Assembly: GCF_000430625.1 (NCBI RefSeq)
Contig: NZ_AUMJ01000054.1
Location: 1-39,830, forward strand
Reading direction: 5' to 3'
Source: Aneurinibacillus terranovensis DSM 18919
GTDB lineage: Bacteria > Bacillota > Bacilli > Aneurinibacillales > Aneurinibacillaceae
DNA: 39,830 bases
Under the pieces are notes generated by a model, which was not told where the DNA came from, did not search any database, and saw only the letters and a list, made by a program, of their open reading frames with translations. Shown here piece after piece: positions 4,805-31,511 of this stretch; position 1 is the first letter of the stretch, and each line of letters starts with the position of its first letter. The position numbers were made by a program, and so were the translations under genes.

Positions 4805-5569
4805 ATGTCCCAAGTGTTATGGCAGGCAGATAACGGGATTGGTGTGATTACGATCGATTCTCCGCCCGTTAATGCCCTCAATCAGGAAGTGCTCAGTCAG
4901 CTTTCCGATATTGTTGGCAACATTTCTGACGACATTCAAGTTGTCATCATCACGGGTGCCGGCGAAAAAGCCTTTGTAGCCGGTGCCGATATTAAAGAGT
5001 TCCCCCAGTTAAAGCAGGAAGCCGGTGAAACCCTCTGCAAAAACGGCCAGTCTGTGTTTCAAAAAATTGCTGACCTTAAGCAGCCGGTAATCGCGGCTGT
5101 GAACGGTTTCGCGCTCGGCGGCGGTCTTGAGCTTGCCCTCGCCTGTGATTTTCGCGTCGCTTCCCGCAACGCCCAGTTAGGGCTGCCGGAAGTAAAATTA
5201 GGTGTGATTCCGGGGTACGGCGGTACGCAGCGTCTCGCCCGTTTGATTGGCCCGGGAAAAGCCAAGCAGCTCATCTTTTCCGGCGAATTTGTTTCGGCCG
5301 AGGAAGCCTACCGCATCGGGTTGGTCGAACAGTTGGCGGAAGGGTCCGCGCTTGAGGAAGCAAAGAAATGGGCACAAACCATTCAAAAACGTTCCCCTCT
5401 CGCTGTGCAGGCAACGAAACAGGCCATTGATAAAGGACTGGAACTCGATTTACAAGAGGGATTGAAAATCGAAGCCAGACTGTTCGGGGAAATTTGCCTT
5501 ACAGAGGACAAAAATGAAGGAGTAGCGGCATTTTTTGAACGGCGGGAGCCTCAGTTTAAAGGAAAGTAA
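4805..5569 (+). CDS. Enoyl-CoA hydratase (crotonase family)
   Basis: Adds water across the double bond of trans-2-enoyl-CoA in beta-oxidation. The 254-residue protein has the crotonase oxyanion-hole segments (AFVAGADIKEF near residue 57, and GFALGGGLELALACD near 101). Both catalytic glutamates expected of a true hydratase are present: E109 in GGLELAL and E129 in LPEVKLGVIPG. The C-terminal EGVAAFFERREPQFKGK is typical of the family. AAGGAGGAA precedes the ATG. It stands alone between ykfC and a terminator, apart from the large acyl-CoA cluster that begins 13 kb further on. Exact chain-length specificity cannot be read from the sequence. Confidence 0.9.
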   Translation: MSQVLWQADNGIGVITIDSPPVNALNQEVLSQLSDIVGNISDDIQVVIITGAGEKAFVAGADIKEFPQLKQEAGETLCKNGQSVFQKIADLKQPVIAAVNGFALGGGLELALACDFRVASRNAQLGLPEVKLGVIPGYGGTQRLARLIGPGKAKQLIFSGEFVSAEEAYRIGLVEQLAEGSALEEAKKWAQTIQKRSPLAVQATKQAIDKGLELDLQEGLKIEARLFGEICLTEDKNEGVAAFFERREPQFKGK

Positions 5570-18259: not shown

Positions 18260-19018
18260 TTATTTTTTTACATTGACTTCGTTTATTATATCTTTCATTA
18301 CTAAGTTATTTTCTACCAGGCACGGAACTACAGGCAATAATCCTGATTGAGCTACATAAGGAATTGCCTCTTTATAGCCAAGTTTGGTAAGAAGAATCCC
18401 CGTTGAAGATTTCTGTAAGTCTTGTTGGAGATAGGGAACGCGATATTTATACAATTGGTAGGCGGCTTCTGCAGAGTCAGATAAAGCCCAGGTTTGTTCG
18501 TTTTCTTTTAAGAGTTCGGAAATGAGGTAGCCGGCGCCAAGAAAATCTTCCATGGAGAATCGATTGTCGGATCCGGCACAAACAATCAAAACCGAACTAT
18601 CGTCTCTATTTTTTTGAATTTGTTTAGCCACTGTAGAACCATTCAAGAAAGAAGAGGAATAAACAGTCTTAGCCATCATAGACTTTCTTATTCCCACAGT
18701 TCCGTTGGTTGTGCACAAAATGAGTGTCTTATCCGTTAGATTTAATTCTAATAACGAAATGGGATCAGGGTTAAGAAAACCTTCTATTGTATGTCCCCCT
18801 TTTTCTCCGGCTAAAACATAAGAATCGCCTGGAAGGGAGCGCGCTACTTTGAAAGCCTCTTCCTCATCGAAGACTGGAATCACTTCTTTTGCACCGTGGT
18901 GCAAGCAAACGGCAATGGTGGAGGTAGCGAGTAAAACATCGATAATTACGACTGTGCAATGGGTTATTTTATTGGAATCAATTTCTTCTTTTTGTGTTAA
19001 GACATGGATTTTTTGCAT
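18260..19018 (-). CDS. ComB-family phosphatase (2-phosphosulfolactate phosphatase-like)
   Basis: A 252-residue member of the ComB family, Mg2+-dependent phosphatases of 2-phosphosulfolactate and other 2-hydroxyacid phosphates; B. subtilis uses such an enzyme for spore sulfolactate. Family motifs are VVIIDVLLATSTIAV, LAGEKGGHTIEGF, LCTTNGTVGI and VCAGSDNRFSMEDFLGAGYL. The first motif normally reads DVLRATTT; here the Arg is Leu (residue 30), and CAG..G reads CAGSDN, so the substrate may differ. It is the last gene of the minus-strand operon, 25 bp behind an acyl-CoA dehydrogenase and three genes from an APH-type kinase. AGGGGGA precedes the ATG. A role in removing phosphate from by-products of the kinase pathway is possible. 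Confidence 0.75.
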   Translation of the reverse strand: MQKIHVLTQKEEIDSNKITHCTVVIIDVLLATSTIAVCLHHGAKEVIPVFDEEEAFKVARSLPGDSYVLAGEKGGHTIEGFLNPDPISLLELNLTDKTLILCTTNGTVGIRKSMMAKTVYSSSFLNGSTVAKQIQKNRDDSSVLIVCAGSDNRFSMEDFLGAGYLISELLKENEQTWALSDSAEAAYQLYKYRVPYLQQDLQKSSTGILLTKLGYKEAIPYVAQSGLLPVVPCLVENNLVMKDIINEVNVKK

Positions 19019-19043
19019 AATTCCCCCTATTATTAATCATCTT

Positions 19044-20198
19044 TTACTTATTCTCCAAAAGAAAATCAGCGATGGTTTCGTGTAAGGTTTCCGTGCTTCT
19101 GAGATCAAGCCGGGAGATCCGTAACTCTTTATACCAACGTTCTAGAGGAAAATCTCTAGTAAACCCAGCTCCGCCGTGAATCTGAAACACTCGGTCAATA
19201 ATTTTTGAGGCAGTTTCGGTAGCGATAAGTTTGGCGATTTGGACAGCCGGTTTACAGTCTTTTGCGTTTCTATCCAATTTGATAGCTGCGTTCCACACTG
19301 ACAAACGGGCAGCTTGCAATTCAGCATAGGAGGCGGCTAACATTGTACGAATTGATGGGTATTCGGACAAGTGCTTTCCTCTTGTTATTCGTAGCGATGC
19401 GTAATTTATTCCAAATTGTAAAGCTTTTTTAGCAATTCCAATACAACGTGCTGCCAATAAGATCTGGGATTCTGTAAGCCATTCTTCTATCATCTGAACT
19501 CCTTCTCCCACATTTCCAATACGCCTTGTATCATCAATTTCAAAGTCATTAAATGTTAATTCATAACACGAATGAACATCCAGTAATAGTTTTTCATTTT
19601 TTTCTATGGCATCATCACGTTCCAGAAGGAACAAGGTTGGCTTAAAGTCTCCGCTTTCTGTCAAACACCGGACAAGAACAATGCCAAAATCTGCTCTTTC
19701 TACATTGGTAACATACGATTTTTTGCCCTGGATGACCCATGTGTCGCCCTTTTTTTGCGCATGGCATAGTAAGTTCTGTAATTCATCACTTTCATTAGGT
19801 TCCCACAGAGCCATATAGCAACCATTACCCGTTAAAATTGCCGGTTTCATAAATCTTTCATATTGTTCAGTTGTGCATTTGCTCAGAAAGCAGGGCAAAT
19901 CCCTACCGAAAGCACCCGCTCCCGGATTATGAAAACCTAAACGGTGCTGAGTCGCTTCTTCCTCAAGAACTACCTGTTCAAAGCGGGTTAACCCCGGACC
20001 ACCCCATTCTTTTTTGCTCCCTAATAACCAAAATCCGTTTTGTTTAGCCTTGGATTGCAGCTGAAGGACAACAGATAAAGGCAATCTTTCTATGGTACCG
20101 CCTGCTGATTTTTCTGCCGGAACTACGTGTTCTTTAATGAAAGACTTCATGGTTTTTCGTAGCATTTTTAATTCATCGGTAAGCAAAATTTCTTCCAT
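19044..20198 (-). CDS. Acyl-CoA dehydrogenase family protein, divergent active-site tail
   Basis: A 384-residue FAD-dependent acyl-CoA dehydrogenase fold: N-terminal helical domain (1-120), beta domain with MALWEPNESDE...GKKSYVTNVERAD (about 130-230), and C-terminal helices with ITRGKHLSEYPSIRTMLA and QIHGGAGFTRDFPLERWYKE. The catalytic Glu of medium-chain enzymes lies in a YEGTxE motif; the matching place here reads LDLRSTETLHE, with no EGT. It may use another base or have a non-oxidative role. It lies 84 bp behind the kinase gene in the minus-strand operon, after an intercistronic hairpin, and 25 bp before the ComB-like gene. Substrate unknown. Confidence 0.82.
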   Translation of the reverse strand: MEEILLTDELKMLRKTMKSFIKEHVVPAEKSAGGTIERLPLSVVLQLQSKAKQNGFWLLGSKKEWGGPGLTRFEQVVLEEEATQHRLGFHNPGAGAFGRDLPCFLSKCTTEQYERFMKPAILTGNGCYMALWEPNESDELQNLLCHAQKKGDTWVIQGKKSYVTNVERADFGIVLVRCLTESGDFKPTLFLLERDDAIEKNEKLLLDVHSCYELTFNDFEIDDTRRIGNVGEGVQMIEEWLTESQILLAARCIGIAKKALQFGINYASLRITRGKHLSEYPSIRTMLAASYAELQAARLSVWNAAIKLDRNAKDCKPAVQIAKLIATETASKIIDRVFQIHGGAGFTRDFPLERWYKELRISRLDLRSTETLHETIADFLLENK

Positions 20199-20244
20199 TT
20201 TTCATTCCCCCGGTTATTTCTGAATTTTAACCTTTCGGTAGCTT

Positions 20245-20272
20245 GGAAACCGCCTCCCCCTAAGGCGATTCC
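20245..20272 (-). other. Intercistronic hairpin in the dehydrogenase-kinase operon
   Basis: In the 84-bp gap, outer arms GGAA/TTCC and inner arms CGCCT/AGGCG form an interrupted stem around a 7-base loop. There is no T-run behind it on the minus strand, so it is more likely an mRNA processing or stability element than a terminator. Confidence 0.35.
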
Positions 20273-20282
20273 AATTGCGTTG

Positions 20283-21338
20283 TTATAGCAATTCTTTTTG
20301 CAAGGCTCTGTAGGATTGTTGCATGAGATTGCAGACCCCTTCCCCTAATTTGCCAAATCTCTCATCACTGGCTTCACCCTGTTTCCAACGGTAATAAATT
20401 TGCTGGAGAATCACCCCGATTTTATAAAAGGCAAATGTCAGATAAAAATCAATATGGGTCAAATCACGACCACTTTTTTTGGCATAAAGATCGATAAATT
20501 CTCGACGTTTGATGAATCCGGGATTGTTTGTTACGGAGGTAAGCCCGGTGAAAGCCTCTCCTTCTTCTGTCCAATAGGCAAGTGATGAACCCAAGTCTGT
20601 AAGGGGATCTCCGATCGTGCACATTTCCCAATCAAAGACCGCTACCGCTTTTCCAGGATCATTCTTGGATAACATCATATTGTTTAGCTTGAAATCGTTA
20701 TGGACAATTGTAGGGTATGGAGAAACGGGCATATTACGAACCAACCATTTTTCGATTTCTTCGACGACATGAATTTCATCCGTTTTGGAGTGATGATACC
20801 GTTTAATCCACCCGTGCACTTGTCTTTCTAAGTATCCCTCTGGATGGCCCAAATCGGATAAGCCTGCTGTTTTAATGTCGATTTCGTGCAGTTGCACCAA
20901 CGTTTTAACGACAGTTTCAGATATCATTTTTGCTGTTTCTTCGGTATCTTCATATTCGGGGGGAAGTTGATCATCGATCACCGTCCCCTGCTTTCTCTCC
21001 ATCACGTAAAAAGGCCTTTCCATAATCGAGAGATCATTACAAAAGAGATAGGGTTTAGGAGCTAAAGGAAACACCGGATTGATTTTCCACAAAATGCGAT
21101 ATTCCCGTTCCATATCATGGGCCTTTGGCGGGATGGGGCCGAAGGGCGGACGACGGAGAACGGCTACCCACTCTCCGATACGGATTAAAAATGTTAAATT
21201 GGAGTAACCGGCTGAAAACTGTTTCACCTCCATTGGTTCGCTCCCCAATTGTTCAATGTGGGAACGGAGAAAATGTTCAATTCTTTCCCAATTTATTTTT
21301 TGAATGGTATGAACAGCATTCACCTCGTTTTGCTCCAT
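20283..21338 (-). CDS. APH-like phosphotransferase (ACAD10/11 and LvaA-type kinase family)
   Basis: A 351-residue aminoglycoside-phosphotransferase-fold kinase of the branch that accompanies or is fused to acyl-CoA dehydrogenases. Motifs: FSAGYSNLTFLIRIGEWVAVLRRPP (nucleotide lid and Lys/Arg region, 41-65), the catalytic loop HNDFKLNNMM (H213, D215, N220) and the metal motif FDWEMCTIGDPLTDLG (D236). Known relatives (mammalian ACAD10/11 N-terminal part, Pseudomonas LvaA) phosphorylate the 4-hydroxyl of 4-hydroxyacyl-CoA, so the dehydrogenase partner can eliminate phosphate. Here the start lies only 5 bp behind the stop of an ACAD10/11-type dehydrogenase gene, with GGGAGG before the ATG. Antibiotic resistance is unlikely given motifs and context. 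Confidence 0.87.
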   Translation of the reverse strand: MEQNEVNAVHTIQKINWERIEHFLRSHIEQLGSEPMEVKQFSAGYSNLTFLIRIGEWVAVLRRPPFGPIPPKAHDMEREYRILWKINPVFPLAPKPYLFCNDLSIMERPFYVMERKQGTVIDDQLPPEYEDTEETAKMISETVVKTLVQLHEIDIKTAGLSDLGHPEGYLERQVHGWIKRYHHSKTDEIHVVEEIEKWLVRNMPVSPYPTIVHNDFKLNNMMLSKNDPGKAVAVFDWEMCTIGDPLTDLGSSLAYWTEEGEAFTGLTSVTNNPGFIKRREFIDLYAKKSGRDLTHIDFYLTFAFYKIGVILQQIYYRWKQGEASDERFGKLGEGVCNLMQQSYRALQKELL

Positions 21339-21343
21339 CCTGA

Positions 21344-22528
21344 TTACCTCCCTGTCTGAAAGGCTTTGATCACTTGTTTCGCAACTACCATTCGATGGAC
21401 TTCATCGGCTCCGTCATAGATTCGGGCGGATCGGGCTTCACGGTAAAATCCCTCCAGAGGCGTATCTCCCGTAATGCCCAATGCCCCGTGAACTTGAATA
21501 GCCCGGTCGATCACATCATGAAGAACTTTTGCCCCGAAAAACTTGATCATAGAAATCTCCTTGCGAGCCTGATCTCCTTGATCCATTTTCCATGCGGCAA
21601 GCAACGTTAACAGGCGAGAAGCCTCGATTTCGGTTGCTGAATCCGCAATAAAGTTTTGAATGGTTTGAAAATCAACTAATTTTTTTCCGCGTGTTTCTCT
21701 TCTTAAGGCGTAGTCGACCATTAATTCAAAACTTCGCTTGGCTACACCAATCCAGCGCATCGCATGGGTTATGCGCCCCGGTCCGAGGCGTAATTGAGCG
21801 AGCTTAAAGCCTTCCCCGCGTTTTCCCAGCATATTTTCGGCGGGTACACGGCAATTCGTATAACGGACCTCACAATGCCCTCCGGCAAAGTGATCCCCCA
21901 TAACCGGCACTTCTCGCACAATGGAAAAACCTGGTTGGTTAGCATCGACGATAAACATACTGAAACGTTCATGAGGTGGGGCATCAGGATCAGTAGCAGC
22001 CATAACGATCGAGAAGGAGGCACCAAGAGCTCCGGTGGTAAACCATTTGTGAGCGTTAATGACCCATTCATCTCCATCCTTTTCAGCGCGAGCTTGAAGC
22101 ATGGTTGGATCAGAACCTGATACTTCCGGCTCCGTCATGGCAAAACAGGAACGAACATCGCCATTCACTAATGGCTTAAGATATTTCTCTTTTTGTTCGG
22201 CGGTTGCGGCGTGCCAGAGAATTTCCGAGTTCCCCGCATCGGGGGCCATGGAACCGAAAATATAGGGAGCAATAGGGCTCCTTCCAATAATTTCAGAAAG
22301 TAAACCAAGGGATACAAACCCCATTCCCATTCCACCGGCTTCTTTTGGTAAATGACCAGCCCATAATCCCAATTCTTTCACTTTTTGTTGTAAAGGTTTT
22401 AGAATCTCATCCGGCAAACCGCGATGGGGAACCACGTATTTTTCATTGGGGTACACGTATTTTTCCATAAATGCTGTTGCTTTTTCTACCATTTCCTGTT
22501 GTTCCGGTGTAGGGCCAAAATCGTACAT
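21344..22528 (-). CDS. Acyl-CoA dehydrogenase, ACAD10/11 type
   Basis: A 394-residue FAD enzyme. It opens with YDFGPTPEQQEMVEKATAF and has the flavin/substrate segments CFAMTEPEVSGSDPTMLQ and GDEWVINAHKWFTTGA. At the C-terminus are QVHGALGITGDTPLEGFYREARS and RIYDGADEVHRMVVAKQVI. The motif DGADEVH in place of EGTSE marks the ACAD10/11 and FadE-like branch that works with APH kinases. First gene of the minus-strand operon: AAGGAGTG precedes the ATG, and a candidate sigma-54 promoter lies about 45 bp upstream. Family knowledge suggests it acts on 4-phosphorylated acyl-CoA to give an enoyl-CoA; ordinary dehydrogenation remains possible. Confidence 0.88.
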   Translation of the reverse strand: MYDFGPTPEQQEMVEKATAFMEKYVYPNEKYVVPHRGLPDEILKPLQQKVKELGLWAGHLPKEAGGMGMGFVSLGLLSEIIGRSPIAPYIFGSMAPDAGNSEILWHAATAEQKEKYLKPLVNGDVRSCFAMTEPEVSGSDPTMLQARAEKDGDEWVINAHKWFTTGALGASFSIVMAATDPDAPPHERFSMFIVDANQPGFSIVREVPVMGDHFAGGHCEVRYTNCRVPAENMLGKRGEGFKLAQLRLGPGRITHAMRWIGVAKRSFELMVDYALRRETRGKKLVDFQTIQNFIADSATEIEASRLLTLLAAWKMDQGDQARKEISMIKFFGAKVLHDVIDRAIQVHGALGITGDTPLEGFYREARSARIYDGADEVHRMVVAKQVIKAFQTGR

Positions 22529-22572: not shown

Positions 22573-22589
22573 ATGCACGAAGTATGCCA
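22573..22589 (-). promoter_or_regulatory. Candidate sigma-54 (-24/-12) promoter of the dehydrogenase-kinase operon
   Basis: On the minus strand the sequence reads TGGCAT-ACTTC-GTGCAT, against a consensus of TGGCAC-N5-TTGCW. The essential GG (22588/22587) and GC (22576/22575) are at the right distance. It would start transcription about 35 bases before the ATG at 22528. It is a weaker match than the plus-strand promoter at 24200. Confidence 0.6.
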
Positions 22590-22699: not shown

Positions 22700-24064
22700 A
22701 TGGAATTGGAAAATCATTTTTTGGATATTTTAGAATCCCTGCATGATGCCGTTCTTGTTATTTCCGTGGATAGTACCATTGAATTTGTGAATCAGGCTTA
22801 TTCTCGCCATTTTGGAATCCAGGCACACAAAATTATTGGCAAAAAACTATCAGAAATTGAACCCAAAGCCCGAATCCTTGAAGTTATTCAAAACGGCAAG
22901 GAGCTTATTAATGATTACAGTTATGTTCACTCCTTAAAAAAGGACGTTTGTGCAAATATTACCCGTCTTACCGAAAAAGGAGTATTGATTGGTGCAGTGG
23001 CTATCATGAGGGACATTAGTGAAGTGATACATCTACAAGAAGAATTGAATCGTTATAAAAGATATTCCCACGAGCTGGAAAAGAGATTAGATCGCAAAAA
23101 TTTTTCCCTTTTGGAGAGTCAAGCCTCAAGGATGAAAATTGCTGTCGATCTGGCCCGTAGAGTAGCGGGGACGGATGCTACGGTTCTTCTGCAAGGGGAA
23201 ACAGGTGTTGGAAAAGAAGTATTTGCAAAAGCGATTCATCAGGCTAGTTTACGGGCGGATAAACCTTTTATCCCCATTAATATGTCTTCCATTCCCGAGT
23301 CTCTGTTTGAGAGTGAGCTGTTTGGGTATGAAGAGGGATCGTTTACTGGATCAAGAAAGGGCGGCAAAAAAGGATTATTTGAACTTGCCAATGGCGGCAC
23401 TTTATTTTTAGATGAGATTGGTGAAATGCCAATGAACCTTCAAGTAAAAATCCTTCGCGTCATTCAGGAACGTGCCTTTCAAAAAGTAGGGGGAACACAG
23501 TGGCATCCGCTCGATGTGAGGATCATTTGTGCCACGCACCGGGACCTCCGTATGGAAATAAAGCAGGGAAATTTTCGGGAGGATCTCTATTACCGCCTAA
23601 ACGTCGTGCCTATTCATATTCCGCCTCTAAGAGAGAGAGAGAGTGACATTGCCTTTTTAGTCAACAATATATTGACTGAACTTAGTTCCAGGTATCGGAA
23701 ACATGTTTCTGTGACACAGGAAGTTTTGGATAGGTTTGTCCAGTATGATTGGCCTGGGAACGTCCGGGAATTGTTTAATGTTTTGGAACGGATGATCGCC
23801 GTATGTTGCAAAACGTATTTTACCCCTGAAGATATCCCGGATTATATACGACTTAAGAGGATGGAAAGAGAAGAAGAGGTATCGATACACCTTGGTAATT
23901 TTTCAGAAGGCAATGGTAACCTGAATGGTTTACTGGAAAAAATGGAGAGAGATATGATTATAGAGGTGCTCAGACATACCAAAAATCGTACAGAAGCCAT
24001 TCTGAAACTGGGGATTAGCCGCAAAGCCTTTTATTCGAAGTTGCAAAAGTATGGGCTAATGTAA
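22700..24064 (+). CDS. Sigma-54-dependent transcriptional activator (PAS-AAA+-Fis HTH)
   Basis: A 454-residue enhancer-binding protein. Residues 1-110 are a PAS domain (ESLHDAVLVISVDSTIEFVNQAY), the likely ligand sensor; 110-140 is a coiled coil. The AAA+ domain has Walker A GETGVGKE (166-173), the sigma-54 contact loop EGSFTGSRKG, Walker B GTLFLDEIGEMP (233-244) and YRLNVVPIHIPPLRER. The C-terminus is a Fis-type HTH (KNRTEAILKLGISRKAFYSKLQKYG). The contact loop is normally GAFTGA; here it reads GSFTGS (213-218). ATG 22700 follows GGAGGA; a longer frame from 22595 lacks a ribosome site. It sits between two divergent operons that both carry -24/-12 promoters, so it probably activates both. The ligand is likely the substrate acid or its CoA ester. 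Confidence 0.93.
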   Translation: MELENHFLDILESLHDAVLVISVDSTIEFVNQAYSRHFGIQAHKIIGKKLSEIEPKARILEVIQNGKELINDYSYVHSLKKDVCANITRLTEKGVLIGAVAIMRDISEVIHLQEELNRYKRYSHELEKRLDRKNFSLLESQASRMKIAVDLARRVAGTDATVLLQGETGVGKEVFAKAIHQASLRADKPFIPINMSSIPESLFESELFGYEEGSFTGSRKGGKKGLFELANGGTLFLDEIGEMPMNLQVKILRVIQERAFQKVGGTQWHPLDVRIICATHRDLRMEIKQGNFREDLYYRLNVVPIHIPPLRERESDIAFLVNNILTELSSRYRKHVSVTQEVLDRFVQYDWPGNVRELFNVLERMIAVCCKTYFTPEDIPDYIRLKRMEREEEVSIHLGNFSEGNGNLNGLLEKMERDMIIEVLRHTKNRTEAILKLGISRKAFYSKLQKYGLM

Positions 24065-24077
24065 ATGGAGAGTAAGT

Positions 24078-24121
24078 AAAGTGTTTCCAAAGTAAACATC
24101 TGTTACTAAAGGAAACACTTT
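24078..24121 (+). terminator. Possible terminator stem overlapping the first two dyads
   Basis: AAAGTGTTTCC (24078-24088) and GGAAACACTTT (24111-24121) are perfect 11-bp arms, followed by TTGTTTC. The stem sits just behind the activator gene and may end its transcript, while its arms are at the same time half-sites of UAS copies 1 and 2. The 22-base loop is large and the T-run is broken, so this reading is less certain than the UAS one. Confidence 0.4.
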
Positions 24122-24138
24122 TGTTTCTTATAGAAACA
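24082..24138 (+). promoter_or_regulatory. Three 17-bp dyads: probable activator-binding sites (UAS)
   Basis: Three copies of TGTTTC-N5-GAAACA occur in a row: TGTTTCCAAAGTAAACA (24082-24098), TGTTACTAAAGGAAACA (24101-24117) and TGTTTCTTATAGAAACA (24122-24138). Their centres are 19 and 21 bp apart, about two helical turns, so they face the same side of the DNA. They lie 60-120 bp upstream of a near-perfect sigma-54 promoter and directly behind the gene of the sigma-54 activator. The third copy is a perfect dyad, extended by one T/A pair. Confidence 0.75.
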
Positions 24139-24199
24139 ATTTTAATTTTTAACAAACAAAGAAATACAAAATAATGTTACAAATTCTTATTCTGAAAAT

Positions 24200-24214
24200 T
24201 GGCACGATTGTTGC
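24200..24214 (+). promoter_or_regulatory. Sigma-54 (-24/-12) promoter of the acyl-CoA ligase operon
   Basis: TGGCAC-GATTG-TTGC followed by TT matches the sigma-54 consensus TGGCAC-N5-TTGCW at every fixed position. Transcription would begin near 24226, giving a leader of about 43 bases to the TTG start at 24269. The three upstream dyads supply activator sites. Confidence 0.85.
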
Positions 24215-24268: not shown

Positions 24269-25882
24269 TTGAAAGTCGTCTGGGATCAAGAGATTCAAAA
24301 CTATGTTACGGAGGAAGTAATCAACGGAGTTAAACTGAAGGTTTATAAGGACAGGCCAAAAACGCTTATCGAAACCTTTGAGAACAGTGCGGCTCTATAT
24401 CCGGACAAAGTTGCTCTCGTGCATGGAGATGACCGTTTAACTTATCGTGAATTGCGGGAACAAGTACACAACATGGCTTTTCAACTTCGAAATGGTTATG
24501 GCGTCCAAAAAGGCGACCGTGTCGCTTTGCTGCTGATGAATGGGGTTCCTTTTGTGGTGGGTGTATACGCTGCTCTGCAGATCGGGGCTATCGCGGTCCC
24601 TCTCAACACCAAGCTCAGGACACCGGAATTAGAATACATGCTGCAGAATTCCGGGGCTAAGATAGTAATCACCAATTTAGAATGGTGGCCCAATATTTCA
24701 CCTATTATTGGAAATATTCCAGTTCAGCATATTTTTGTTACGAGTGAAATGGCTCCGGAAGGTACGCAACCTTATCGGTTGTTAGTACAGGAACCTGCGG
24801 CGGAATGGGTTCGAGAAGAGGTGAATGAACATGATGCAGCAATCATCATGTACACCTCGGGTACAACAGGACGTCCAAAAGGGGCGGTCAACACCCATTT
24901 TAATCTCATCCATTCAGCGATGAATTACGCACTCTGCTTCGACTTAACCACTGAAGATTCGACTCTCGTTGCCGTTCCTTTGTTCCACATTACCGGATTT
25001 GCTGCACAACTAGTTCCCTTTATCTATTTGGGAGGAAAAATCGTGCTCATGCCTATGTTTAAGGCGGATCAATTCTTAAAACTGATTCAAGAGGAAGCCA
25101 TTACTCATGTGATTGCTTCACCAACTGTTTATGTAATGACCATGATGCGGCCCGATTACACCGAATATGATACGAAATCATTCCGTTGTGCTGCATTCGG
25201 TGGGGCACCTATGCCGGCGGAAACGGTAAAAAGATTGATGAAATGGATCCCAGGGTTGGAATTGCATAACGCCTACGGATTAACAGAAACCACTTCCCCG
25301 GTAACCCTTATGCCTCATCAACACCAGGTTCGCAAACTAAGTACGGTTGGCATTCCTGTTCCGGTTGGGGAAACGAAGGTGGTTGATCCGGGAACACGGG
25401 AAGAACTGCCTCCCGGACAAATTGGTGAGTTACTTGTCAAAGGTCCGATGGTTGTGCCTGAATATTGGCAAAATGAAGCAGCGACAAAACTAGCTATTGT
25501 GGACGGATGGTTTGCTACCGGAGACCTGGCCATGATTGATGAAGAAGGCTTTGTCACCATTATGGATCGAATCAAGGACATGATCAATCGCGGCGGGGAG
25601 AAAATCTATTCTGCAGAAGTCGAAGATGTTCTTTATTCTAATACAAAAATAATGGAAGCTGCCATTGTAGGTGTACCGGATAGTACATTTGGTGAAGTGG
25701 TCAAAGCTTATGTTGTTCCTCGCCCAGGGGAGACATTGTCGGAAGAAGAAGTTAAACAGTGGGTAGCCGAACGTATGGCCAAGTATAAAGTGCCTGCTTA
25801 CGTAGAATTTTTGGAAGCGCTACCAAGAAATCCGAATGGAAAAATAATAAAGACGCAACTCCGTTATGTAACGAATCAGTAA
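24269..25882 (+). CDS. Acyl-CoA synthetase / AMP-dependent acid-CoA ligase
   Basis: Activates a carboxylic acid to its CoA thioester, the entry step of the catabolic cluster. The 537-residue protein has the class I adenylate-forming motifs in order: P-loop IIMYTSGTTGRPKGA (about 190-204), NAYGLTETTSPV, GWFATGDLAMIDEEGF, DRIKDMINRGGEKIYSAEVEDVL and the catalytic Lys in PRNPNGKIIK. The start is TTG 24269, 8 bases behind GGAGGTGA; a GTG at 24257 overlaps that site and is less likely. First gene of the plus-strand operon behind a sigma-54 promoter. Medium-chain or functionalised acids are plausible substrates, but specificity cannot be read from the sequence. Confidence 0.9.
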   Translation: MKVVWDQEIQNYVTEEVINGVKLKVYKDRPKTLIETFENSAALYPDKVALVHGDDRLTYRELREQVHNMAFQLRNGYGVQKGDRVALLLMNGVPFVVGVYAALQIGAIAVPLNTKLRTPELEYMLQNSGAKIVITNLEWWPNISPIIGNIPVQHIFVTSEMAPEGTQPYRLLVQEPAAEWVREEVNEHDAAIIMYTSGTTGRPKGAVNTHFNLIHSAMNYALCFDLTTEDSTLVAVPLFHITGFAAQLVPFIYLGGKIVLMPMFKADQFLKLIQEEAITHVIASPTVYVMTMMRPDYTEYDTKSFRCAAFGGAPMPAETVKRLMKWIPGLELHNAYGLTETTSPVTLMPHQHQVRKLSTVGIPVPVGETKVVDPGTREELPPGQIGELLVKGPMVVPEYWQNEAATKLAIVDGWFATGDLAMIDEEGFVTIMDRIKDMINRGGEKIYSAEVEDVLYSNTKIMEAAIVGVPDSTFGEVVKAYVVPRPGETLSEEEVKQWVAERMAKYKVPAYVEFLEALPRNPNGKIIKTQLRYVTNQ

Positions 25883-25923: not shown

Positions 25924-26886
25924 ATGTCTACACAAGTAAAATCAATTTCCGAAGTTTTAAAAGATGCCCCTAAAAATTGGGGTCGTTGGGGTGCGGAAGA
26001 TGAGCTGGGTGCCGTAAACTTTTTGGATCAACTTCAAGTTTTGCGGGGGGTTGCTTCCGTCCAAAGCGGTAAGGTTTTTACCCTGGGGTGTCCGATCGCC
26101 CGGAAAGAAGGTGACCCGGTGTGGCCTGGTCGTTCCCAACCGGGCCACCACATGACTCAAGACCACGGGACCTACTGCTGCGGCAAGCTTCAGCCGCTTG
26201 GGGCAGGGCTGCAATATGCAGATGATGTCATTTATATGGCCGTTCAAGGAACAACCCAATTTGATGCTCTGGGACATGTCTGGTATGATGATGCCGTTTA
26301 TAACGGTTTTTCAGCCAATACAACGATTGATGGGATGGAAAAATGTTCAATCATGCCCATTGCCGAGCATGGGGTAGTTGGGCGCGGCGTTCTTCTGGAT
26401 GTAGCCCGTTACAAGGGGAAAAAGCATTTAGACAAAGGGGAACAAATTACGCTTGAGGATCTGCTTAATACAGCAAAGGCTCAAGGAGTTACAATTCAAA
26501 AGCGGGATATTATCTTGATCCGAACTGGGTGGATAAGCGTTTTCTATAATCAGGGGGCAACTATTTTTTATGAAGGCGATTTTAACGAGCCGGGCATAAC
26601 TTATACGCCTGAACTCGTACAATGGTTCTATGATATGGAAATCCCGGCCTTTGGAACCGATACGATTGCTAACGAGCAAACGGTTTCCTCCGTAACTGGC
26701 ACAGCCCTTCCTCTTCATGGTGCACTCCTTCGTAACCTAGGTGTTTCCTTTAATGAAATCGACTGGTTGGAGGATCTGGCTGATGATTGTGAAAAAGACG
26801 GACAATATACGTTCCTCTATGCTGCTGCACCGTTGAAAATTGTTCAGGGAACCGGTGCTCCTGTTAATCCTATTGTCATTAAATAA
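25924..26886 (+). CDS. Cyclase-family metal-dependent hydrolase (PF04199 type)
   Basis: A 320-residue protein of the cyclase/kynurenine-formamidase-like family, metal-dependent hydrolases of amides, esters and lactones. It opens with NWGRWGAEDELGAVNFLD and continues with GHHMTQDHGTYCC and GTTQFDALGHVWYDDAVYNG; in relatives the HxGTHxD-type motif binds metal. KRDIILIRTGWISVFYN, ELVQWFYDMEIPAFGTDTIANEQ and LPLHGALLRNLGV follow. In this copy the metal motif reads QFDALGH, as in the long-chain subgroup. GGAGATGATAGG precedes the ATG, 41 bp after the ligase gene. Lactone opening or hydrolysis of a ring product would fit the operon, but this is inference. Confidence 0.8.
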   Translation: MSTQVKSISEVLKDAPKNWGRWGAEDELGAVNFLDQLQVLRGVASVQSGKVFTLGCPIARKEGDPVWPGRSQPGHHMTQDHGTYCCGKLQPLGAGLQYADDVIYMAVQGTTQFDALGHVWYDDAVYNGFSANTTIDGMEKCSIMPIAEHGVVGRGVLLDVARYKGKKHLDKGEQITLEDLLNTAKAQGVTIQKRDIILIRTGWISVFYNQGATIFYEGDFNEPGITYTPELVQWFYDMEIPAFGTDTIANEQTVSSVTGTALPLHGALLRNLGVSFNEIDWLEDLADDCEKDGQYTFLYAAAPLKIVQGTGAPVNPIVIK

Positions 26887-26945
26887 ATTTTATCGCGGTA
26901 CGAGGCGGCTTCATGCCGCCTTTTAAGCAAATCGAGGAGGAAGAA

Positions 26946-27827
26946 ATGGAGAGAGTGGCGGTTATAGGAGCCGGAACGATGGGCACCGGTATAGCACAAA
27001 CTTGTGCAGAATCCGGTTACGAAGTGTTACTATTCGATAGGAATCGAGAGTCCCTTGAGAAGGCATTATCAACCATCAAAACCTATCTTAACCGGTCGGT
27101 AACAAAAGAAAAAATGACTGCCAGGGATCGGGATGTCATTTTTAATCGAATTCGCATTTGTACCGATTGTAATGAGCTAAAGGAAGTAGACTACCTAACG
27201 GAAGCGGTAACGGAAAGGACTTCAATTAAACAGGAAGTTTTTAAAAAACTTGAATCGGTATGCCGGGAAGATGTCATTTTTGCAACCAATTCATCCGGTT
27301 TGAGTATCACCGAACTGGCCTCAGCTCTTAAATATCCTCACAGGATTATCGGAACCCATTATTTTTATCCCGTGCCTAAGATGAAATTGGTTGAAATTGT
27401 CCGTGGCGCACAAACAAGCGATGAGACTGCATCTACTGCATTGAGGTTTACGCAAAGCCTGGGGAAAAAAGCAATTGAGGTTAAGGAGTCCCCCTTATTT
27501 GTCTTTAATCGTATCCTCATTCCAATGATCAATGAGGCCATTTTCGTTTTGCAAGAGGGACTATGCCGTAAAGAGGAGATTGACGAGGCGATGACACTTG
27601 GTGCCAATCATCCGATCGGCCCACTCGCCCTGGCAGATGTTATCGGACTTGATACCTTGCTTTATGTTTCGGAAACACTCCATACAGAAACAGGTGACCC
27701 TAAATATCGCCCCCCTCTGCTTCTGCGGCAAATGGTTCGTGCCGGTCAATTAGGCAGAAAAACGAGCAAAGGATTTTATGAGTATATTTCTGATAACTGT
27801 CGAGAAAGGAAGGAAATCATTGGATAA
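26946..27827 (+). CDS. 3-hydroxyacyl-CoA dehydrogenase (first copy)
   Basis: NAD-dependent oxidation of 3-hydroxyacyl-CoA to 3-oxoacyl-CoA. The 293-residue product begins with the Rossmann loop VAVIGAGTMGTGIAQTCAESGYEV and has FATNSSGLSITELA. The catalytic His lies in GTHYFYPVPKMKLVEIV, and the helical C-terminal domain in AMTLGANHPIGPLALADVIGLDTLL. ATG 26946 is chosen because CGAGGAGGAAG lies just before it and the Rossmann strand follows at once; an ATG at 26913 would add eleven unsupported residues. A second, diverged copy occurs four genes later (30660). Confidence 0.9.
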   Translation: MERVAVIGAGTMGTGIAQTCAESGYEVLLFDRNRESLEKALSTIKTYLNRSVTKEKMTARDRDVIFNRIRICTDCNELKEVDYLTEAVTERTSIKQEVFKKLESVCREDVIFATNSSGLSITELASALKYPHRIIGTHYFYPVPKMKLVEIVRGAQTSDETASTALRFTQSLGKKAIEVKESPLFVFNRILIPMINEAIFVLQEGLCRKEEIDEAMTLGANHPIGPLALADVIGLDTLLYVSETLHTETGDPKYRPPLLLRQMVRAGQLGRKTSKGFYEYISDNCRERKEIIG

Positions 27828-27862
27828 ACAATTCCTACAGAAGGATAAAACAGGGGGTGAGT

Positions 27863-28642
27863 ATGTTGTCGAATCATATAAATATTTGCATCGAAAATCA
27901 AATGGGGCATATCACATTAAATCGACCGGAAAAGCTTAATTCTCTTTCGCTTGACCTTGTTGAATCGTTGATAGAATCATTGAAAAGGTTTGAGAGGGAT
28001 CCAGAAGTTAAAGTCATCGTACTTTCCGGTGCAGGGAAGGCTTTTTGTGCCGGTGGGGATCTTGAGACCATGAGGTCCTTTTCCAGTGCTATTGATATGG
28101 CAAATTATATTCAAACGACTTCCAACCTTACGAAAACGATCATCGAACTTGACAAGTATGTAATTTCTGCGGTGCAAGGGTTTGCTGCCGGAGCCGGTTT
28201 TAGCATTGCGCTTGCCTCCGATTTTATTGTTGCAGATCGCGCAGCTAAATTTGCTTTAAGTTTTATGAATATCGGATTAATTCCGGATCTGGGGCTAATT
28301 AACCTTTTATCAGAACGTGTACCTCTGCCGGTAGCCAAGGAATGGATTACCTCAGGAAAAGTCATAGCCGCTGAGGAAGCGATGGCTAAAGGGATCATAA
28401 ATAAAATTGCGGAGGGTGATTTGTTAGAAGAAACAATCGAGTTCTCAAAGTTTCTTTTAAAAGGTCCCCCGCTTAGTAATAAATTTGTCAAATACCTGTT
28501 GAATCATGCCAATCATTTGAGCTGGAAAACTTCTTTCATGCAGGAAAATATGATCCAAACGCTTCTACTCCAGACAGAAGATCATAAGGAAGGTCTGCAG
28601 GCATTCTTTGAGAAAAGAGTTCCGGAGTTTAAAGGTATGTAG
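27863..28642 (+). CDS. Crotonase-family enoyl-CoA isomerase/hydratase (PaaG-like)
   Basis: A 259-residue crotonase-fold protein: LNRPEKLNSLSLDLVESL, AFCAGGDLETM, GFAAGAGFSIALASDFIVAD. Both glutamates of a true hydratase are missing (Ser and Phe at those places), while MNIGLIPDLG carries an Asp (D142). In PaaG-type isomerases an Asp at this place is the acid/base, so double-bond isomerisation is more likely than hydration. AGGGGGTGA precedes ATG 27863 by 5 bases. It lies between the first 3-hydroxyacyl-CoA dehydrogenase and an SDR gene in the same operon. Contrast with the complete hydratase at 4805. Confidence 0.83.
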   Translation: MLSNHINICIENQMGHITLNRPEKLNSLSLDLVESLIESLKRFERDPEVKVIVLSGAGKAFCAGGDLETMRSFSSAIDMANYIQTTSNLTKTIIELDKYVISAVQGFAAGAGFSIALASDFIVADRAAKFALSFMNIGLIPDLGLINLLSERVPLPVAKEWITSGKVIAAEEAMAKGIINKIAEGDLLEETIEFSKFLLKGPPLSNKFVKYLLNHANHLSWKTSFMQENMIQTLLLQTEDHKEGLQAFFEKRVPEFKGM

Positions 28643-28653
28643 GGAGCGATCAC

Positions 28654-29415
28654 ATGATGAATGTATTTGATTTAAGCAATAAGGTAGCCATTATAACCGG
28701 TGGGAATAGGGGGTTAGGCAGAGCCATGGCTTTAGCATTGGCGGAAGCCGGTGCGGATATCGCCATTATTGGGCGGAATGAAGATTTGAATCAGAAAGTT
28801 GTTCAAGAAATAGAAGATCTGGGCAGAAAAGCGATTCATTTCTCTACGGATTTGCGGAGTGTCCATGCTATTTATCAAATGGTAGAAGAGGTAGAAGAAA
28901 AGTTTAAAAAGATTGATATTCTTATCAATAATGCAGGGGTATCCCATACGGCATTTGCTTTTGAAGTAACCGAACAAGAGTGGGATGAAGTGATGGAACT
29001 TAATCTTAAGTCCTTGTTTTTTTGCTCGCAAGCCGTCGGAAGGAAAATGGCCGGTCAGGGTTACGGGAAAATTATCAACATCGCATCTGTGGCTGGAGCA
29101 GTAGGAGAAGTGGGAATCAGTGCGTATACGGCCAGTAAAGCGGCTGTCATCAATCTCACACGATCTCTTGCATTGGAGTGGGCGAGATATGGCGTTCAGG
29201 TAAATGCAATTGGACCGGCTTACATCAAAACGGATATGAATGCAGAACAGTTGGAAAATCCGAAGGTATTGGAGAAAATTGTGGGCAAAACCCCCATGAG
29301 AAGGTTGGGGCAACCTACTGAATTGTCCGGCGCGGCCATTCTCCTGGCATCGGATGCCAGCAGTTTTATCACCGGTCAAACCGTATTTGTGGATGGCGGT
29401 TGGTTGGCCCAATAA
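28654..29415 (+). CDS. Short-chain dehydrogenase/reductase (SDR, FabG-like)
   Basis: A 253-residue classical SDR. The cofactor loop is TGGNRGLGRAMA (15-26), NNAG is at 92-95, and the catalytic triad is S145, Y158 and K162 (INIASVAGAVG, SAYTASKAAV). The C-terminus SSFITGQTVFVDGGWL is usual for FabG-like enzymes. It starts 11 bp after the isomerase gene (GGGAGCG site); ATG 28654 and ATG 28657 are both usable. In this operon it may reduce or oxidise a keto/hydroxy group on the acyl chain, as LvaD does for the 4-oxo group in P. putida levulinate use. Cofactor preference is not certain. Confidence 0.88.
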   Translation: MMNVFDLSNKVAIITGGNRGLGRAMALALAEAGADIAIIGRNEDLNQKVVQEIEDLGRKAIHFSTDLRSVHAIYQMVEEVEEKFKKIDILINNAGVSHTAFAFEVTEQEWDEVMELNLKSLFFCSQAVGRKMAGQGYGKIINIASVAGAVGEVGISAYTASKAAVINLTRSLALEWARYGVQVNAIGPAYIKTDMNAEQLENPKVLEKIVGKTPMRRLGQPTELSGAAILLASDASSFITGQTVFVDGGWLAQ

Positions 29416-29454
29416 ATTTGGGATTGTAAATTTCACTAGTAAGGAGAGATTCAG

Positions 29455-30639
29455 ATGACAGGTGTGTACGTATTAGGTGGAGCAAGGACCCCTTTTGGAA
29501 GTTTCGGCGGATCTTTGAAGGATGTATCGGCTACAGAACTCGGCGTAATTGCAAGCAAGGGCGCGATAGAAAAAAGCAACATCCCTGCCGGACAGGTCGA
29601 TCATGTCTATGCTGGCAGTGTCATTCATACATCCAAAAACGCCTCTTATATCGCCAGGCATATCGCTCTGAAGGCAGGAGTCCCTGTGGAAAGCCCCGCG
29701 TTAACCGTTAATCGTTTGTGCGGTTCGGGATTGCAAGCGGTGGTTTCCGCTAGCCAATCCATCTTATTAGGGGAATCAAATCTGGCATTAGCCGTTGGCA
29801 CAGAGAATATGAGCCAGGCTCCGCATGTTTTAAGAAATGTGCGGTTTGGTACCGGCCTGAAATCGCCGGAAGTGGATGATATGCTCTGGGCGACATTGAC
29901 GGACGAATACCTTGGGTGTGGGATGGGAATGACAGCTGAAAACCTATCGGAGAAATATGAAATTAGCCGTGAAGCGCAGGATCAATTTGCATTAGAATCC
30001 CAACAGAGGGCGTCAAAAGCGCAGTGTGAGGGCAGGTTTAAGCAAGAAATCAGTCCCGTCCACCTTGCGGATAAAAAAGGGCGGCAACTCTCGGTTTCCG
30101 AAGATGAATATATTCGGGCTGATGCCACGCTGAACGGACTGTCCAGTTTGAAGCCGGCATTTAAAAAAGACGGAACCGTCACAGCTGGAAATGCCAGCGG
30201 AATTAATGATGGGGCGGCCGCTGTGGTGATAGCCGGTGAATCCTACGTGAAACAAAATCAAGATGTCGTGCCGATTGCCCGCATTATATCATGGGGCATC
30301 GCAGGCGTTGAGCCTGGCATTATGGGAATAGGTCCCGTTCCGGCGAGCCGGCTGGCTTTAAAAAGGGCTGGTTTGACAATGGATGATATGGATTTGTTTG
30401 AAATTAATGAGGCCTTTGCGGCTCAATATCTTGCTGTTGAAAAAGAGTTGGGGCTGAAGCGGGAGAAAGTGAATGTGAACGGAGGAGCGATTGCATTGGG
30501 GCATCCTGTAGGGGCAAGTGGAGCCAGAATTTTATACTCATTGGCTCTTGAATTAAAAAATCAAGGAAAGAAGTATGGATTGGCATCCTTATGCATTGGC
30601 GGAGGCCAAGGGATTGCCATGATCATTGAATCGCTATAA
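29455..30639 (+). CDS. Acetyl-CoA acyltransferase (thiolase)
   Basis: Cleaves 3-oxoacyl-CoA with CoA, the last beta-oxidation step. The 394-residue protein has the acyl-carrying Cys89 in NRLCGSGLQAVV, GENxxQ-like TENMSQAPHVLR, GIGPVPASRLALKRAG, NEAFAAQYLAVEKELG, the His in GGAIALGHPVGASGAR and the second Cys in CIGGGQGIA. Length and motifs are complete. AAGGAGAG lies 8 bases before ATG 29455. It follows the SDR gene by 39 bp and precedes the second 3-hydroxyacyl-CoA dehydrogenase by 20 bp. Its best substrate cannot be read from the sequence. Confidence 0.92.
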   Translation: MTGVYVLGGARTPFGSFGGSLKDVSATELGVIASKGAIEKSNIPAGQVDHVYAGSVIHTSKNASYIARHIALKAGVPVESPALTVNRLCGSGLQAVVSASQSILLGESNLALAVGTENMSQAPHVLRNVRFGTGLKSPEVDDMLWATLTDEYLGCGMGMTAENLSEKYEISREAQDQFALESQQRASKAQCEGRFKQEISPVHLADKKGRQLSVSEDEYIRADATLNGLSSLKPAFKKDGTVTAGNASGINDGAAAVVIAGESYVKQNQDVVPIARIISWGIAGVEPGIMGIGPVPASRLALKRAGLTMDDMDLFEINEAFAAQYLAVEKELGLKREKVNVNGGAIALGHPVGASGARILYSLALELKNQGKKYGLASLCIGGGQGIAMIIESL

Positions 30640-30659
30640 AAGAAGAAGGGGGGATGAAC

Positions 30660-31511
30660 ATGGGAATTAGAAATGTGATGGTAGTAGGCAGCGGTTTAAT
30701 GGGCTCCGGCATTTCCCAGGTGATTGCTTCAGCCGGATTTGAGGTAATCATGGTTGATCAGAAAATGGAATACGCCGAGAGAGGCCTGAGTAACATTTCC
30801 GTGAACTTGTCCAGGCGGGTATCCAAAGGGAGTTTACCCGAAAACGAAAAGGAACAGATTATTTCACGAATCACTACAGCAGATGATTTGCATGCGGGGA
30901 AACATGTTGACCTTGTCATAGAGGCAGTTCCGGAGCGACTGGAATTGAAGAAGAAAACGTTTGCCGAATTGGATCAAATGGTACAACGTGAGGCAATCCT
31001 TGCTACGAATACGTCTTCCCTGTCCATTGCTTCGATTGGCAGTTCCACGAAACGCCCGGAGAAGGTGATCGGCATGCATTTCTTCAGTCCAGTTCCGATC
31101 ATGAAGCTGGTTGAAATTATTCCTTCTATTATAACAGACAGGGATACCATTCATGCGGTTGAGGAGTTTTCCAAACAAATAGGAAAAGAAACGATTTTCG
31201 CCAGCGATTATCCGGGATTTACGGTGAATCGCCTATTAGTCCCTTTTATGAATGAAGCGATTTATCTTGTGTTCGAAGGAAATAACCCCGAGGATATTGA
31301 TCGTGGGATGAGATTAGGCGCTAACCATCCGATCGGTCCGCTGGAGTTGGCCGATCAAGTTGGTTTGGATGTTTTACTGGATGTACTGGAAAGTATGTAT
31401 GAAGGATTCAATGATTCGAAATACAGACCATGCCCTTTGCTCAAGAGGATGGTCGAATCAGGTAAATTCGGAAAAAAGAGCGGGTCCGGCTTCTATACCT
31501 ATAACCGTTAA
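30660..31511 (+). CDS. 3-hydroxyacyl-CoA dehydrogenase (second copy)
   Basis: A 283-residue paralogue of the enzyme at 26946: VMVVGSGLMGSGISQVIASAGFEV, LATNTSSLSIASI, the catalytic His in GMHFFSPVPIMKLVEII, and GMRLGANHPIGPLELADQVGLD. The two copies share the fold and motifs but differ throughout, so they are old paralogues rather than a fresh duplication. Two such enzymes in one operon suggest two different hydroxyacyl-CoA intermediates. ATG 30660 lies 6 bases after GAAGGGGGG; ATG 30654, two codons earlier, touches the site and is less likely. Confidence 0.9.
   Translation: MGIRNVMVVGSGLMGSGISQVIASAGFEVIMVDQKMEYAERGLSNISVNLSRRVSKGSLPENEKEQIISRITTADDLHAGKHVDLVIEAVPERLELKKKTFAELDQMVQREAILATNTSSLSIASIGSSTKRPEKVIGMHFFSPVPIMKLVEIIPSIITDRDTIHAVEEFSKQIGKETIFASDYPGFTVNRLLVPFMNEAIYLVFEGNNPEDIDRGMRLGANHPIGPLELADQVGLDVLLDVLESMYEGFNDSKYRPCPLLKRMVESGKFGKKSGSGFYTYNR

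Follow-up and report, generated by a model that had tools for sequence, protein, structure and literature searches.

The window analysed here, a stretch of 39,830 nucleotides from Aneurinibacillus terranovensis DSM 18919, carries an array of three short dyads between the gene of a putative sigma-54 activator (22703-24064) and acyl-CoA ligase, cyclase and beta-oxidation genes, followed by a -24/-12 promoter element (Table 1). The activator was matched by the Pfam models PF00158, PF25601, PF02954 and PF08448 and comprises PAS, sigma-54 interaction (AAA+), lid and Fis-type HTH domains. Its GAFTGA-type loop reads GSFTGS (GAFTGS in some orthologs), and its domains are those of an enhancer-binding protein. 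The best-scoring NCBIfam model was PrdR (NF041552), with 431 bits against a curated cut-off of 795; the protein is therefore not a member of the PrdR equivalog, and it falls within no NCBIfam equivalog cut-off. The ligase, whose start codon is a putative TTG placed by alignment to relatives, is followed in order by genes for a putative cyclase (PF04199), a 3-hydroxyacyl-CoA dehydrogenase, an enoyl-CoA hydratase, an SDR, a thiolase and a second 3-hydroxyacyl-CoA dehydrogenase, all of which are likely to form one operon with it, of presumed extent. A divergent operon at 18260-22528 on the minus strand encodes two acyl-CoA dehydrogenases and a kinase.

Table 1. Positions of the activator gene, the dyads, the promoter elements and the target genes in the window.
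Feature	Position	Strand	Description
Activator	22703..24064	+	PAS - AAA+ (sigma-54 interaction) - Fis-type HTH activator of 453 aa, ATG start behind GGAGG; proposed reader of the dyads
Dyad 1	24082..24098	.	TGTTTCCAAAGTAAACA; 1 mismatch; 20 bits (matrix built from other genera)
Dyad 2	24101..24117	.	TGTTACTAAAGGAAACA; 1 mismatch; 18 bits (matrix built from other genera)
Dyad 3	24122..24138	.	TGTTTCTTATAGAAACA; 0 mismatches; 25 bits (matrix built from other genera)
-24/-12 sigma-54 promoter element	24200..24214	+	TGGCACGATTGTTGC; GG and GC blocks invariant in aligned relatives
AMP-forming acyl-CoA ligase	24269..25882	+	First gene of the target operon; PF00501/PF13193; NCBIfam PRK06187 just above cut-off
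Rest of the likely operon	25924..31511	+	Short gaps, one strand
Candidate second -24/-12 element	22575..22589	-	TGGCATACTTCGTGC; 1 mismatch; before the divergent acyl-CoA dehydrogenase operon; dyads absent nearby

Each dyad is a mirror-symmetric 17-bp element, TGTTTC-N5-GAAACA. A first-pass annotation of this DNA had reported three copies of it; the positions are exact, but only dyad 3 is perfect, dyads 1 and 2 having one mismatch each. The centres lie at 24090, 24109 and 24130, confirming the spacing of 19 and 21 bp given before, and the dyads are found 62-118 bp upstream of the -24/-12 element (60-120 bp in the earlier estimate), with 61 bases between dyad 3 and the -24 element. That the array directly follows the activator gene also holds, the stop of the gene being at 24064. 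The promoter had likewise been placed correctly, at 24200-24214: in its context, TTGGCACGATTGTTGCT, the element matches TTGGCAY-N5-TTGCW completely and is the sole full match within the window. In an alignment, the columns that are invariant among three relatives concentrate in the half-sites, the -24/-12 element and the ribosome site. The genome also carries rpoN (Sigma54_DBD, 222 bits, G000:C1:225876).

The intergenic stretch is A+T rich and loose dyads occur singly elsewhere in the window at chance frequency, as they would if the array were a chance cluster of A+T-rich palindromes beside a chance -24/-12 match. However, when up to one mismatch was tolerated, 60 of 20,000 dinucleotide shuffles of the 135 bp from 24065 to 24199 yielded a single dyad and no shuffle yielded two, compared to the three observed, and the array is conserved in other genera. 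The probability of such a coincidence is practically negligible, conservation having already refuted it. In the entire 4.25-Mb genome there are 23 dyads with at most one mismatch, three of them in this array. Alternatively, dyad 3 might chiefly form the stem of a weak terminator downstream of the activator gene: this stretch is a perfect inverted repeat that folds into an A+T-rich hairpin of 8 bp (-5.7 kcal/mol), with the T-rich TTTTAATTTTT after it. A terminator scan, though, reported no terminator-like site, dyads 1 and 2 hardly fold, and it is identical letters, not just complementary ones, that recur at different places in other genomes, where changes in one arm are uncompensated. The terminator is highly improbable and was rejected on the scan and the folding results.

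The first-pass annotation had proposed a genome-wide search for the motif near -24/-12 promoters. We built a weight matrix (about 20 bits) from the dyads of other genomes, leaving out the genus of the window, and ran it on every perfect TGGCAY-N5-TTGC site that the window's genome has in the retrieved stretches, 59 in total. Only the promoter described here was strong, with 63 bits over three sites as against 19 for the next best, and 51 of the 59 sites had nothing above 5 bits. The score of the runner-up stems from two TGTTCC...GGAACA-type dyads, which resemble sites for a different activator. TGTTCC-N5-GGAACA dyads were seen upstream of other -24/-12 sites in L132 and L107 (G000 contigs C78 and C20); these are probably the sites of a sibling activator, with one base different per half-site. 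None of the genome's other dyads with at most one mismatch lies near a good -24/-12 element in the correct arrangement. At 4632-4740 of contig C50 (L053:1632-1740) four TGTTTC/GAAACA-like dyads are located between divergent genes, one of which encodes an HTH repressor-like protein, and they are probably a phage-type operator with a similar palindrome.

Orthologs of the activator, 57-80% identical, were found in 14 of 121 genomes of relatives, and a scan of named genomes added eight, resulting in 22 genomes (Aneurinibacillus, Bacillus ectoiniformans, B. dakarensis, Cytobacillus, Alkalihalobacterium, metagenome-assembled and other ones). A full -24/-12 element with preceding dyads was scored in 20 of the 22, and at least two dyads, with up to three mismatches each, in 19; within the set of 121 relatives the same array stands at the activator ortholog in 12 genomes, and it does so in further Bacillaceae. 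Across relatives, neighbouring dyads are 18-24 bp apart (mean 20.8, about two helical turns), a degraded middle dyad leaves the outer two 40 bp apart, and the centre of the last dyad precedes the -24 element by a median of 60 bp (49-85). The exceptions are the metagenome assemblies AS04 and MAG13, with degenerate dyads or dyads with a 6-bp spacer, and G042, which encodes a 57% ortholog and has weak dyads.

To judge from these genomes, the array accompanies the activator, and the operon behind it varies. It is located between activator and ligase, with ligase-cyclase behind it, in the window, Aneurinibacillus sp. Ricciae and A. tyrosinisolvens, and in other Aneurinibacillus it separates the activator from an operon of enoyl-CoA hydratase, 3-hydroxyacyl-CoA dehydrogenase and acyl-CoA dehydrogenase. 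In Bacillaceae a similar operon and its array are found two genes (2 kb) downstream of the activator; G067 carries the array on the activator's other flank, on the opposite strand and pointing away; and in G103 it precedes SDR-HAD. G103 has a second region (L134 15205-15517), where two dyads lie between divergent -24/-12 elements 284 bp apart, and these promoters front genes homologous to the divergent acyl-CoA dehydrogenase/kinase operon and to the cyclase of the window.

The strict dyad-plus-promoter pattern was found in 9 of 399 Bacilli genomes, six times at this activator, and never in the reversed control. Among the 121 relatives it was present in 6 of the 14 genomes with an ortholog versus 1 of the 107 without (Fisher p 5e-6, a value that ignores kinship). 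The other three of the nine matches (L074, L075 and L076) have a near-identical dyad before a -24/-12 element beside unrelated, AcoR-like activators, with an aldehyde dehydrogenase or no clear target, and there the same site is apparently used by a different activator family. The dyad alone therefore does not identify its reader, and the motif is not private to this group.

We propose that the three dyads are, very probably, the upstream activating sequence (enhancer) of the adjacent activator, which would drive the ligase operon through sigma-54. Because the array is conserved with the activator in about twenty relatives, this protein is predicted, almost certainly, to bind there. Its role as the reader of the dyads, already suggested by the first-pass annotation, is supported by co-conservation, kept spacing, co-movement and specificity within the genome. 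Another regulator, such as a TetR-type fatty-acid repressor, TnrA/GlnR or a different enhancer-binding protein, might instead use the dyads as operators independently of the adjacent activator, as the AcoR-associated dyads in three Bacilli genomes and the palindrome spacing TGT-N11-ACA, common to several factor families, would allow. Cross-binding may also come from the more than 30 other activators of this type in the genome, although even the most similar HTH in this set reaches only about 48% identity. Yet the array remains with the activator despite changes in operon, strand and distance, a pattern that a regulator tied to one operon would not produce, and the gene maps reveal no other regulator gene evidently kept beside it. 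TnrA/GlnR sites require A at position 5 and T at position 13, which the dyads do not jointly have, and tandem dyads 60-110 bp upstream of a -24/-12 element form an enhancer layout, unlike a repressor operator. A regulator independent of the adjacent activator is thus unlikely.

If the adjacent activator is the reader, its C-terminal Fis-type HTH would bind each TGTTTC-N5-GAAACA dyad as a dimer, on roughly one face of the helix, and the array would bring the AAA+ domains together into a hexamer. The hexamer would loop across 60-110 bp to sigma-54 RNA polymerase held at the promoter element, and ATP hydrolysis would open the promoter, so that the acyl-CoA ligase, cyclase and beta-oxidation genes could be transcribed. 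The PAS domain may serve as the sensor of an inducer, probably the carboxylic acid or its CoA ester. In this account the sequence elements, their conservation and spacing, the association with the activator and rpoN are observed, and the rest is what we infer; dimers, hexamer and looping are general knowledge of enhancer-binding proteins (reviewed in PMC7175178). The earlier description of the locus as a complete control region went too far, as neither a bending site nor an inducer came to light, and a separate -24/-12-like element, with no dyads close to it, precedes the divergent operon.

Fifteen groups of Clostridiales activators with TGT-N10-12-ACA sites have been described (PMC6615313), and the array, with three copies of TGT-N11-ACA upstream of a -24/-12 element, belongs to this class. 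As in the upstream activating sequences of YcbP, AdhR, CrbR, PrdR and others (PMC6615313), and in the NifA and FhlA type, there is an inverted TGT...ACA with an 11-bp spacer; also shared with the Clostridiales systems are multiple sites upstream of TTGGCAT-N5-TTGCT, an adjacent activator gene, the Fis-type HTH and, mostly, one target operon. They differ in that here the half-site is extended to TGTTTC/GAAACA, the arrays are usually of three dyads about two helical turns apart, and the distance to the -24 element is about 60-110 bp rather than mostly 100-250 bp (PMC6615313). According to the accessible part of its description, GabR of Bacillus thuringiensis, the activator of gabT, has the same PAS-AAA+-HTH order with a PAS signal domain and binds to a region of repeats immediately before a -24/-12 promoter, but it protects 96 bp, which contain a 21-bp inverted repeat, its target concerns GABA/succinic semialdehyde, and no TGTTTC/GAAACA site was found in that part (PMC4279683). 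An in-silico study of sigma-54 regulons of Bacilli, in its accessible portion, reports acyl-CoA dehydrogenases, 3-hydroxyacyl-CoA dehydrogenases and acyl-CoA synthetases as enriched among predicted targets; this portion covers promoters and gene classes and does not describe an activator-binding motif for this regulator (PMC12316311). A search of the main texts of openly accessible articles returned no description of the activator group or of a TGTTTC-N5-GAAACA array. Hence the type of switch is well known, while the recognition sequence of this activator appears not to have been described before. The earlier claim of a new binding-site definition stands for this regulator and not for the site class, which is known (PMC6615313), with near-identical dyads beside AcoR-like activators; what is new is thus limited to a predicted but well-supported site definition for one regulator group. 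It provides a testable recognition sequence of about 20 bits for an uncharacterised sigma-54 activator group in Bacilli and ties this group to beta-oxidation-type operons.

A broader proposal, which we put forward tentatively and with more doubt than confidence, is that the activator gene and the dyad array form a portable control cassette placed before different CoA-ester degradation modules in Bacilli, one array serving several sigma-54 promoters. Two of these would be the divergent promoters in G103, and perhaps also the window's divergent acyl-CoA dehydrogenase promoter, 1.5 kb off, and the dyad-less first promoter of Bacillaceae. SoxR and RocR, enhancer-binding proteins of Bacilli, differ in recognition sequences and pathways, and one site of theirs can serve promoters 1.5-1.7 kb away (PMC4941409 and references therein); the element at 22575-22589 and the Bacillaceae promoter could therefore use the same array. 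In several genomes the homologous divergent operon is likewise preceded by a -24/-12 element in this position, and dyads are absent there. The enoyl-CoA hydratase gene at 4805, the homolog of the target gene in other species, has neither dyads nor a -24/-12 element upstream. For studies of enhancers, the genomes offer natural variants with a changed operon, a changed distance, shared divergent promoters or a 6-bp spacer.

The closest solved relatives of the kinase in the divergent operon include the kinase part of ACAD11, which suggests that this operon may act in 4-hydroxy acid breakdown as in levulinate-type pathways. This ACAD11-kinase-like protein makes a levulinate (lva) cluster under an LvaR-like activator a possible lead. 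The genome is a heavy user of sigma-54: the sigma-54 activator domain is matched 39 times (some 34 of these matches strong), and there are 57 perfect -24/-12 matches versus 17 for the reversed pattern. It also contains a 988-aa frame (G000:C21:14144-15010) with a match to the sigma-54 activator domain and a weak one to the DNA-binding domain of sigma-54.
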